Shown one piece after another: positions 49,175 through 51,550 of a stretch of DNA of 64,000 nt. Positions within the stretch are counted from its first letter, which is position 1; each line of letters begins with the position of its first letter. The stretch is taken from the NCBI GenBank assembly GCA_026004935.1, contig BPKC01000001.1, positions 310,001 through 374,000 of the forward strand. The letters are read 5' to 3'. The position numbers were made by a program, and so were the translations under genes. This DNA is from Rhodothalassiaceae bacterium (lineage in GTDB: Bacteria > Pseudomonadota > Alphaproteobacteria > Sphingomonadales > Rhodothalassiaceae). Below the pieces are notes generated by a model that worked only from the letters and a program-made list of their open reading frames with translations, was not told the origin of the DNA and ran no database searches.

Positions 49175-49981
49175 TCACCCGGCCGCGAGCGCGGGATCCA
49201 GATCCACCAGCACCGGCACATGGTCGCTCGGCCGCCCCCAGCCGCGCGCCTCTTTGAGCACGGTCACATCGCGCACGCATTCCGCGAGCCCGGGACTGGT
49301 CCAGACGTGATCGAGGCGCCGCCCGCGATCGGACGCCGCCCAGTCGCGCGCGCGGTAGGACCACCAGGTGAACAGCTTCCGGGGGCGCGGGATCGCGGCC
49401 CGCACGACATCGACGAAGTCATGCGCGGCCATGAGGGCGAGCAGCCGCTCGGTCTCCGCCGGGGTGTGGCTGACGACGTCGAGCAGCGCCTCGTGCGACC
49501 ACACGTCCTCGGGATGCGGGGCCACATTGAGGTCGCCCAGCAGGATCACCGGTTCCCTGAGCCGCCCGGCCCAGGTGATCATCTCGTCGAGGAAGGCGAG
49601 CTTGTGGGCGAAGCGGGGGTTGGCCGCGGGATCCGGCACGTCGCCGCCGGCGGGGACGTAGAAATTGTGGAGAACCACCCCGCCGGGCAGCCGCGCCGCG
49701 AGATGGCGGGCGTCATCCGCCCCGCACCAGCTGCGCGATCCGGCGTCCTCGAGCGGCAGGCGCGAGAGGATCGCCACGCCATTGTAGCCCTTGATGGCGC
49801 GCAGCAGCTGGTGCGGATAGCCGAGCGCGGCGAAATCTTCGGCGGGAAAGCGATCGGCCGCGACCTTGATCTCCTGCAGGCAGACGATGTCGGGGGCGTG
49901 TTCCGCCACCAGGCGCACGACATGGGGCCAGCGCGCGCGCACCGAATTGACGTTCCAGCAGCACAGGCGGATGCGGTCCAT
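49175..49981 (-). CDS. xthA: Exodeoxyribonuclease III (AP endonuclease)
   Basis: A 268-residue exonuclease/endonuclease/phosphatase enzyme that repairs abasic sites. Catalytic motifs are in order: LCCWNVNSVRARW, IVCLQEIKV with metal-binding Glu, LGDLNVAPHPEDVW with Asp-Asn, and the final RPSDHVPVLVDLD with the catalytic Asp-His. RRLDHVWTSPGL is the conserved Asp region. It is the last gene of a minus-strand run behind the hypothetical gene at 50022, 40 bp away. Confidence 0.95.
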   Translation of the reverse strand: MDRIRLCCWNVNSVRARWPHVVRLVAEHAPDIVCLQEIKVAADRFPAEDFAALGYPHQLLRAIKGYNGVAILSRLPLEDAGSRSWCGADDARHLAARLPGGVVLHNFYVPAGGDVPDPAANPRFAHKLAFLDEMITWAGRLREPVILLGDLNVAPHPEDVWSHEALLDVVSHTPAETERLLALMAAHDFVDVVRAAIPRPRKLFTWWSYRARDWAASDRGRRLDHVWTSPGLAECVRDVTVLKEARGWGRPSDHVPVLVDLDPALAAG

Positions 49982-50021: not shown

Positions 50022-50618
50022 TCAGTAGATGTGCCAGGTCGCCCCGATCAAGGCGAGCGGCCAGCGCCCCTTCTCGAACAGCGCAAAGCGCAGCGCGAAG
50101 GGATGCGCCGCTTCCGCCCCGGCCGCCAGCACCAGCGCCGCATCCACCGTCGCGGCCGCCGCCGCGCCCACCGCCGCGTCCAGCAGATCGGCGGGAGTTG
50201 CGGGCGGGAAGACGCCGTCCTCCTCGATGGCGCGCCCGGCGGTCACCGCCGCAAGGCCCTTCAGGACGGTCAGCGCCTCCTCCATCGCCTCGCGCTGCGC
50301 AAGCTGCGCGCGGATCCGGTCGGCCAGCTCGGCGCGCCGCTGCTCTTCCTGGAGGGCGAGGGGGTTGCCGGGATCGGCCGCGGCCAGCACCTCCTCGACA
50401 TCGGCGAGCGATTCGGCCGGCACCGGGTCGGCATCGGGAATGCCGAGCCCCGCAAGACAGGCCCGGGCCGTCTCGACGGTCGCGGCATCGAGCGGGCGCG
50501 CGAGCGCCCCGAACCAGGGCATGCGGGCGAGATAGCGGCCGAGCCGCGGCAGGCCGGCGAGCGCGGGCTCGTCGGCGGCAAGAAGATCGAGGAGAGCGAG
50601 CGGATGGTTCATGCGCAT
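50022..50618 (-). CDS. Hypothetical protein between the small RNA and xthA
   Basis: A 198-residue protein starting MRMNHPLALLDLLAAD. It is Ala/Leu-rich and mostly helical, with an acidic charged middle (NPLALQEEQRRAELADRIRAQLAQREAMEEAL, about 85-116) that could form a coiled coil. There is no signal peptide or convincing membrane segment. I do not recognise the family. It lies directly downstream of the small-RNA terminator and upstream of xthA on the same strand. ATGs at 50618 and 50612 are both possible; no good ribosome-binding site distinguishes them. Confidence 0.6.
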   Translation of the reverse strand: MRMNHPLALLDLLAADEPALAGLPRLGRYLARMPWFGALARPLDAATVETARACLAGLGIPDADPVPAESLADVEEVLAAADPGNPLALQEEQRRAELADRIRAQLAQREAMEEALTVLKGLAAVTAGRAIEEDGVFPPATPADLLDAAVGAAAAATVDAALVLAAGAEAAHPFALRFALFEKGRWPLALIGATWHIY

Positions 50619-50678
50619 GATGGCGATCCGTGACGGCGGCATCCCCGGGTGCCGGCACCCGGCCCTTTCGCGGCGCGC

Positions 50679-50718
50679 AAACGAGAGCGCCCGGTCGAGG
50701 GGGGCATCGACCGGGCGC
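50679..50718 (-). terminator. Rho-independent terminator of the small RNA
   Basis: On the minus strand the stem GCGCCCGGTCGA pairs perfectly with TCGACCGGGCGC (50707-50718 and 50687-50698) around the 8-base loop TGCCCCCC, followed by TCTCGTTT. The tail is less U-rich than ideal but the 12-bp GC stem is very strong. Confidence 0.75.
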
Positions 50719-50796
50719 AGCCGTTAACGGCGTCGCTTGAGCGGTCTAACCGGGAAGTGGGGGGCACAACTCCGGGAGGGGACGACCGCTCAAGTG
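50679..50796 (-). ncRNA. Candidate small RNA with twin UGCCCCCC loops
   Basis: A promoter, two hairpins and a terminator are stacked in the lolA to 50022 gap on the minus strand. Hairpin 1 closes with a perfect 11-bp stem (50736-50746 with 50784-50794), and its 37-nt interior carries UCCCCUCCC and UGCCCCCC. Next comes the palindrome GCCGTTAACGGC (50720-50731). Hairpin 2 is the terminator with a perfect 12-bp stem and the loop UGCCCCCC. The same 8-nt loop in both hairpins, complementary to G-rich ribosome-binding sites, suggests a trans-acting antisense regulator. The design recalls the 6C RNA of actinobacteria, but this is a proteobacterium and no homology is claimed. Confidence 0.7.
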
Positions 50797-50801
50797 ATTT
50801 G

Positions 50802-50829
50802 AACATAGGACATCCGGAATTAAAGTCAA
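50802..50829 (-). promoter_or_regulatory. Sigma-70-type promoter of the small RNA
   Basis: Read on the minus strand: TTGACT at 50829-50824 and TATGTT at 50807-50802 with a 16-bp spacer. The predicted start, about 50796, is one or two bases before the first hairpin. The surrounding tract is conspicuously AT-rich for this window, and lies just after the lolA stop. Confidence 0.65.
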
Positions 50830-50851: not shown

Positions 50852-51550
50852 CTACATGCCGCGCCGCTTGCGCCGCACGGCCCGCCGCGGGTCGGCGAAC
50901 TCCCATGCCGATTCCGCGATCTCGACATTGGCTTCGGCGTCAAAAAGCCGCACCTCGATGACGCCGCCGCGGCCGTCCGGCACCCGCCAGCCGAGCCAGG
51001 AAAGCGCGCCGCCGCGTTCCGAAATGAGCAGCAGCGCGCGGCCGCGCCCGGGATGGGCGGGATCCTCGACCTCCACCCAGAACAGGCCCCCGACCGGGCC
51101 GTCATGGATGGCGCGAATCGCCGCGCGCAGCGCCCCGGGATCGGGGCGGCGGGCGAGCAGCGGGGCGAGCACGGTCTCGGCCACGGGCCAGCGGCTGACG
51201 CTGCCCGCCTCCTCGTCGACCAGCGACACCTGGCGGCCGTCGGAGACGATGATGAACGGGGTGCCGTCGGTATAGGAGAAGCGGAAGCGGCCGGGCCGCT
51301 GCCACAGGAAGATGCCCTCGCGGCGCCCGCCGTCGGGCGTGATCTCGACGAATCGCGCCTTCAGGCTGGCGAGCCCCGCAAAGAAGGCGACGACCTCATC
51401 CGCCCGCCGGTCCTCGACCGCCGCGGTATCGCCGCCGGAGGCGGCCGGCGCATCCTGCGTCCGGGCGGCCGCGCCGCCCGCGAGCAGCGCAACGAGCAGC
51501 GCAAGCGCCGTCCCCATCGCCGCGAACCGCCGTCCGGTCTTCGCGATCAT
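50852..51550 (-). CDS. lolA: Outer-membrane lipoprotein carrier LolA
   Basis: A 232-residue periplasmic protein with a cleavable signal (FAAMGTALALLVALLAGGAAA, cleavage near residue 30). The LolA fold is seen in ASLKARFVEITPDGGRREG, the conserved IFLWQRPGRFRFSY segment and VSDGRQVSLVDEEAGSVSRW. It ferries lipoproteins from LolCDE to the outer membrane. It lies 100 bp downstream of ftsK on the same strand, a usual alphaproteobacterial pairing. Confidence 0.9.
   Translation of the reverse strand: MIAKTGRRFAAMGTALALLVALLAGGAAARTQDAPAASGGDTAAVEDRRADEVVAFFAGLASLKARFVEITPDGGRREGIFLWQRPGRFRFSYTDGTPFIIVSDGRQVSLVDEEAGSVSRWPVAETVLAPLLARRPDPGALRAAIRAIHDGPVGGLFWVEVEDPAHPGRGRALLLISERGGALSWLGWRVPDGRGGVIEVRLFDAEANVEIAESAWEFADPRRAVRRKRRGM

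Follow-up and report, generated by a model that had tools for sequence, protein, structure and literature searches.

Between lolA and xthA in a Rhodothalassiaceae bacterium lies what is very probably a real RNA gene, located in the 64,000-nucleotide stretch of DNA that is called the window here. This judgement follows from its recovery in 7/7 genomes of the window's own family, together with compensatory changes in the stems while 25 loop bases stayed identical. Comparison of related genomes points to a conserved structure in which the loops are kept and the stems rewritten, a conserved place and a conserved promoter spacing. We call the RNA a new sRNA family acting in a known way; membership in alpha-r14, GsrN or 6C fails. 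With moderate confidence, it can be regarded as a stand-alone, trans-acting sRNA of ~119 nt with its own promoter and terminator, whose C-runs would pair with G-rich translation starts.

The order on the minus strand is lolA, the RNA element (50829-50679), the gene of a 206-aa protein, and xthA. The features are as follows:

50852..51550, minus strand: lolA, the upstream neighbour on the same strand (PF03548, E 3.3e-11)
50829-50802, minus strand: sigma-70-type promoter TTGACT-N16-TATGTT, predicted transcription start near 50797
50679..50797, minus strand: predicted small RNA, ~119 nt (fold z -7.25; single copy in genome)
50736..50794, minus strand: hairpin 1, an outer 11-bp stem around a C-rich domain
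50774..50782, minus strand: UCCCCUCCC, anti-Shine-Dalgarno-like; its CCCCUCCC starts the 25-nt invariant stretch
50759..50766, minus strand: UGCCCCCC, the C-run at the tip of hairpin 1
50720..50731, minus strand: middle hairpin, palindrome GCCGTTAACGGC, 12 nt forming a 4-bp hairpin
50687..50718, minus strand: terminator hairpin, 12-bp stem, loop UGCCCCCC at 50706-50699
50679..50686, minus strand: tail UCUCGUUU, a weak U-tract
50022..50642, minus strand: protein of 206 aa of unknown family, directly downstream of the RNA
49175..49981, minus strand: xthA, exodeoxyribonuclease III (PF03372, TIGR00633), the synteny anchor

The preliminary description, made from the letters of the window, had placed the RNA between lolA and a hypothetical gene. 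This is borne out: PF03548 is found upstream, the 206-aa protein downstream is matched by neither Pfam nor NCBIfam at E<=0.001, and xthA comes next. Proteins like the 206-aa protein precede xthA in f1, f3, f5, f7 and f8 loci (f1 is the window's own family) and were not found at the f2, f4 and f6 loci examined. A search of the own genome gave one strong match to the RNA (1.5e-18); the next-best matches were 0.076 (opposite strand, same place) and 0.146 (elsewhere). Phages yielded no match to the RNA, and plasmids none to the window's own RNA sequence. The genome encodes Hfq.

The promoter TTGACT-N16-TATGTT, claimed previously, is the sole promoter-like site in 241 bases, for which shuffled sequence leads one to expect 0.1. 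Both of the perfect stems that had been proposed are present, 11 bp in hairpin 1 (50794-50784 / 50746-50736) and 12 bp in the terminator (50718-50707 / 50698-50687), as is the additional C-rich stretch, UCCCCUCCC at 50782-50774. The supposed 12-bp palindrome exists as GCCGTTAACGGC, but 12 is its length in nucleotides and the hairpin is hence one of 4 bp. The predicted 119-nt RNA folds with -62.8 kcal/mol (z -7.25), equalled by 0/200 shuffles. On the plus strand, GGGGGGCA is located at 50699-50706 and 50759-50766, so both copies of the "same UGCCCCCC loop" are where they had been reported, but relatives keep the C-run alone. With 3 occurrences in the window against 5.3 expected, the 8-mer GGGGGGCA by itself is unremarkable, unlike its position inside covarying hairpins. 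Exposure of UGCCCCCC in a loop holds for the terminator but not entirely for hairpin 1, in whose predicted fold GUG pairs with CAC: the apical loop then consists of five of the six Cs, and a three-pair helix takes up the U and G of UGCCCCCC.

Seven genomes of the own family (f1) were searched, the own one included. BLASTN against 60 genomes including the own detected the RNA in 5/6 other f1 genomes, and R1, a covariance model from six f1 sequences (alignment A2), recovers the seventh (G003, locus L042; 5.2e-6), which has a different loop with two C-runs. A 25-nt stretch, CCCCTCCCGGAGTTGTGCCCCCCAC, is identical in 6/7 members. In A2, 13/36 pairs have changed on both sides, a number reached in 0/500 shuffles, and 97.7% of the cells are paired; when the partners are slid, at most 42.1% are paired with <=4 two-sided pairs. 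Two-sided changes affect 7/10 pairs of stem 1, the outer stem of hairpin 1 (96.7% of cells paired), 4/5 pairs of helix 3, the middle hairpin, and 2/12 pairs of the terminator (100% paired). Within hairpin 1, 8/9 pairs of the inner helix are invariant and this helix is therefore without covariation support. The terminator loops of the six relatives read AGCCCCCC (in three), UGCCCCCC, UACCCCCC or CCCCCC; because they vary, the 8-nt identity of the two loops is incidental and the C-run is the conserved part. The alignment also contains G-U pairs on the minus strand, which would be A-C mismatches on the plus strand; this supports the minus strand as the RNA strand. The preliminary description had made its case depend on conservation of the stems and loops in homologous regions, and there the stems covary and the C-runs are kept.

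A search of 296 genomes of the order with R1 (its E-values, like those of R2 below, are rough) gave matches in 15 genomes at E<=0.01. The match lies between lolA and xthA in 12 of the 15 (7 f1, 4 f2, 1 f4); the other three (L045, L048, L049) adjoin neither gene and are probably false. The f3, f7 and f8 genomes had no match in this search. Regions upstream of xthA were then taken from 60 further genomes, making 72 loci in all. A second model, R2, was derived from 16 Sphingomonadaceae (f6) loci; it holds 11 pairs because MAFFT left stem 1 of the f6 alignment (A3) unaligned. All 22 f6 loci with a recognised lolA have the RNA, 16 being in R2 and the other 6 found by it. The typical f6 RNA combines a loop like TTTCCCCCCTGTTGCCC with GCGTGACGAACGC as its middle hairpin, and its terminator loop resembles ATGCCCCC; exceptions include L099 and L102. 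R2 matches 194/199 f6 genomes and 96/96 genera, 13 of the 199 genomes having supplied its sequences. The covariance-model search of lolA-xthA relatives that had been suggested thus recovers 7/7 f1 members with R1 and 194/199 in f6 with R2. Judging from named BLAST relatives and the many genera, f6 as a whole appears to be Sphingomonadaceae in the wide sense. Among the best 30 R2 matches in f6, LolA is upstream in 30/30 and xthA within 1.5 kb downstream in 23/30, which makes lolA the firmer neighbour in this set. One genome (G569) shows two copies of the RNA with equal scores (C2:14696-14832 and 2573855-2573991), possibly an assembly overlap.

BLAST with an f6 RNA also found relatives on plasmids of Qipengyuania citrea (L320), Sphingomonas parapaucimobilis (L321) and Sphingopyxis indica (L322), with R2 scores of 1.9e-27, 2.4e-25 and 3.1e-19, respectively. 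LolA is upstream and exodeoxyribonuclease III downstream at all three, with an alkaline phosphatase gene between in Q. citrea. In each of these lolA-RNA-xth blocks ribA stands beside xth, and the S. indica plasmid is typed as conjugative.

The link between f1 and f6 rests on matches of R1 to f2, f4 and some f6 loci, matches of R2 to f2 and f4 loci (3.2e-9 to 0.0019), and synteny. The 7 f1 loci tried with R2, as well as L056, L086, L144, L203, L216, L226 and L248, were unmatched up to E 10, and chance-level scores were obtained for L059 (0.55, partial) and L157 (3.7). Of 30 chosen loci, R1 matched 19 with E<=0.01: six known ones, three f6, S. parapaucimobilis, one f7, one f8 and seven outside the order. 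These loci were picked partly for their C-loop terminators, so the count is support and not a rate. L226 (0.11), L054 (0.067), L322 (0.042) and L110 (0.014) scored above 0.01, and L320, L058, L062, L101, L104, L109 and L086 were unmatched up to E 1. The RNA of the window shares the features by which a lolA-xthA C-loop RNA was defined, namely the post-lolA position, in most cases ahead of xthA, and a covarying C-run hairpin 1 and terminator. When 35 chosen members from the order were folded, z was below -2 in 35/35, and for the 5' half alone in 18/35.

Elsewhere the distribution is uneven. Kordiimonadaceae (f5, which includes Kordiimonas) provided 18 loci, 15 with lolA recognised; 14/15 of these lolA gaps are without the RNA, and the one C-loop terminator (L086) is missed by both R1 and R2. 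One of the two f7 loci matches R1 (L059, 0.0017). Lol​A was recognised in 11 of 13 f8 loci, and R1, applied to a single f8 locus whose terminator loop contains C (L056), gave 1.4e-4. At f8 loci such as L068, L087 and L091, lolA is followed by T-tailed terminators whose loops are not rich in C; the C-loop RNA may have been replaced or lost in such loci. Outside the order such loci are carried by Methylopila turkensis, metagenome-assembled Hyphomicrobiales, Tepidamorphus and unplaced alphaproteobacteria. The RNA occurs patchily there; since lolA was recognised upstream of xthA in no more than 55/139 loci, we give no rate. Two of the loci outside the order, L144 and L203, have CCCCUCCC loops inside the lolA-xthA interval.

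The promoter too can be followed through relatives. TTGNNN, a spacing of 16 or 17 nt and a loose second hexamer occur in 10/12 f1, f2 and f4 members, a raw count without shuffled control. Of the best 30 f6 matches (L270-L299), 30/30 have TTCA between -45 and -22 relative to the model start, and 27/30 have TTCA plus an AAGC-like box against 2.5% of shuffles, the 27/30 being a fitted value since the box expression was widened after the sequences had been viewed (6/30 in its earlier form). These 30 share a box ~60 to 20 nt upstream, mostly GTTCAT followed by an AAAGCC-like element, a position taken in f1 and f2 by a plain TTGAN promoter. It is a possible activator site.

We infer that the RNA is transcribed. 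Transcription would start at a sigma-70-type promoter of its own, in the interval from lolA to xthA, and stop at its own terminator, and the folded stems would present C-rich seeds: UCCCCUCCC and the C-run in hairpin 1, and the C-run in the terminator loop. These seeds may pair with G-rich Shine-Dalgarno regions or with G-runs close to start codons, keep ribosomes from binding and so lower the translation of a set of mRNAs. By analogy with known RNAs, pairing of C-runs with ribosome-binding sites would fit, and the drift of the stems around C-rich loops that were kept is suggestive of an antisense RNA seeded by its loops. The mechanism has been established by experiment for similar RNAs, namely NfeR1 (PMC10746234), GsrN (PMC5869019) and B11 (PMC10470900).

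Translation starts were sampled from 454 kb of the own genome by comparing the 30-mers upstream of 307 script-predicted starts with 9461 interior ones. GGGAGG is found upstream of 23/307 starts (17/307 when starts were chosen ignoring Shine-Dalgarno) against 0.8% of interior 30-mers, GGGGGG upstream of 4/307 against 0.22%, and CCCCCC upstream of 0/307. This G enrichment is compatible with pairing but no demonstration of it, since ordinary Shine-Dalgarno sequences are also G-rich. Target patterns, consisting of the loop complement followed by ATG, occur 30 times in 39 f6 genomes against 7 for a control, and 8 times in the own genome against 2; the control is the reversed pattern, which differs in dinucleotides, and one of the 30 is the opposite strand of the RNA gene. 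In the f1 genome G006 there are 75 cases of GGGGGGCA then ATG and 2 of the reversed pattern, a far larger number than in its relatives, which have 6 to 20. The target prediction with a C-run that had been recommended led to no credible conserved target in the 60 loci checked (the complete list of 30 for f6, and 30 for f1 among the matches listed), no orthologous pair there resembling true starts. One pair, L337/L345, is orthologous between two genomes (59.5% identical over 126 aa), but these are probably not starts because the frames are open for ~50 codons upstream of the ATG; another, L369/L377, is a 45-aa frame found twice in one genome. TonB-type receptors are among the single matches, as is a PII-like protein (both identified by eye), and nothing is concluded from them.

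The 25-nt invariance in six genomes covers paired positions of the inner hairpin as well. It exceeds the need of a short seed and counts against the pairing explanation. Along with the 8/9 inner-helix pairs that never vary and the lack of a credible conserved mRNA target at the sites checked, it would suit an RNA that binds a protein, either a chaperone or a C-rich-loop regulator, and titrates or guides it instead of pairing with mRNA. We consider this unlikely: other clades hold their C-runs in differing contexts, the loop of G003 (L042) differs and has two C-runs, and the well-studied C-loop RNAs act by pairing, as described in the cited parts of PMC10746234 and PMC10470900.

It is quite unlikely that the element is a fragment of the lolA 3' UTR, serving as a terminator or stabiliser and possibly processed to an sRNA, without a free-standing regulatory role. 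Such a fragment would be expected on the same strand directly downstream of lolA, would end in a terminator as this one does, and would agree with lolA being the steadier neighbour (30/30 against 23/30 for xthA in the best 30 f6 matches); the own promoter, with its 16-17 nt spacing in 10/12 relatives, and a loop conservation that exceeds the needs of termination speak against it. Descent from alpha-r14, the "cuckoo" RNAs, by a shift from CCUCCUCCC to C-run loops is, in our estimation, very unlikely. Both RNAs are built from several hairpins whose C-rich loops resemble one another, the alpha-r14 model RF02344 gives weak full-length matches at 2/20 relatives' loci (35.2 and 28.5 bits, gathering score 58.8), and L144 and L203, outside the order, have their CCCCUCCC loops in the lolA-xthA interval. 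Against this, RF02344 is unmatched at the own locus up to E 5 and, with a limit of E 0.5, at the eight loci scanned outside the order, CCUCCUCCC is absent from the RNA of the window, and no xthA or lolA was found within ~1.5 kb of 19 RF02344 loci by tblastn, which a diverged lolA could escape. A stand-alone sRNA with C-run seeds is the reading we prefer.

Searches of Rfam 15 agree with a new family. At the own locus there are chance-level matches only, even at E<=5, the best being P15 with 17.1 bits against 70; 6C, for which Rfam contains a family, is not among them, nor found at gathering. None of 28 relatives' loci matches above gathering, and nothing is found at the RNA in the eight loci outside the order. 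Below gathering, the scan of 20 relatives' loci shows ar14 twice and RsmY once, the latter with 22.1 bits against 57. A known Rfam family, which would have removed the novelty, was thus not encountered at the own locus or the 28 others. No earlier report of a lolA-xthA RNA was found in the main texts of open-access papers, among the matches listed; for the Zms sRNAs of Zymomonas, lolA and xth are both absent from the main text of the open papers, though the RNA could still be identical with a Zms RNA. The description of an undescribed small RNA thus stands, with covariation, fixed place, promoter spacing and 194/199 R2 matches behind it and neither an Rfam family nor an earlier report found.

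Sphingomonads are important in the breakdown of pollutants and in making ethanol; to our knowledge little is known of their riboregulation. Found by the model in 96/96 sampled genera and unmatched by Rfam above gathering at any locus scanned, the RNA would be an unannotated core regulator, and with its fixed neighbour and covariance model it can be tested directly in a wide range of strains and in dRNA-seq data that already exist. It also adds one more lineage with C-run loops resembling generic seeds, which bears on the origin and divergence of such regulators. A wider picture is possible, though we put it forward tentatively and with some doubt: an ancient alphaproteobacterial core sRNA may have stood beside lolA before the split of Sphingomonadales and Hyphomicrobiales and have persisted in almost every member of the Sphingomonadaceae as a regulator of translation on a global scale. 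Besides masking Shine-Dalgarno sequences generically, the long invariant loop in one family may bind a particular partner that is conserved, whether RNA or protein.

Among known RNAs the comparison extends to one sphingomonad and three C-loop families. SuhB of Sphingopyxis granuli, an sRNA of 61 nt, is reported in the cited part of PMC6563040 to lower translation by binding a 5' UTR, with Hfq. It was rejected as a candidate on its length (61 nt against ~119 nt) and for the absence of suhB among the Rfam matches up to E 0.5 at 20 loci.

NfeR1, an alpha-r14 RNA, has three hairpins that carry CCUCCUCCC and uses them to silence ntrB (PMC10746234, in the part cited). Like the RNA of the window, alpha-r14 RNAs (RF02344) are described in the cited parts of PMC10746234 and PMC3927594 as ~120 nt long, with repeated C-rich hairpin loops, constant loops and variable stems, a sigma-70-type promoter and occurrence in Alphaproteobacteria. 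In contrast to the CCUCCUCCC of every alpha-r14 hairpin, the RNA of the window has CCCCUCCC and C5-C6 loops, namely UCCCCUCCC, two C6 runs and a middle hairpin, GCCGUUAACGGC, without a C-run, and it occupies another locus. When RF02344 was followed through the class, its gathering score was reached in 0/190 genomes; the 19 loci at E<=0.01 came from 17/190 genomes and, with no lolA or xthA nearby by tblastn, alpha-r14 was rejected as the same gene. One class genome has tandem alpha-r14-like hairpins (L111 + L128, G316:C1:245431-245802), many of them with the loop CTCCTCCTCCCT.

For GsrN the comparison used the EcfG promoter consensus. It was rejected on the TTGACT-N16-TATGTT promoter and the neighbours lolA, unknown protein and xthA. 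In Caulobacter, six tandem Cs in a 5' loop of GsrN pair with G-rich sites; its promoter depends on sigma-EcfG, it belongs to the EcfG stress response, it is processed, and its homologs typically lie near the general stress locus (PMC5869019, in the part cited). The RNA of the window has in its predicted fold a C-run that may likewise pair with G-rich sites, but a TTGACT promoter and a place between lolA and xthA.

Mycobacterial 6C/B11 has two C-run loops, either of which is sufficient against G-tracts at ribosome-binding sites, according to the cited part of PMC10470900. The predicted fold and the alignment give the RNA of the window two hairpins with C-run loops as well; it differs in phylum, in neighbours and in lacking an Rfam match. 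Of the layout that the preliminary description had likened to 6C, the way of working and the two C-run hairpins hold up, but membership does not. The RNA does not qualify as alpha-r14, GsrN or 6C; what it probably shares with all three is the way of working.
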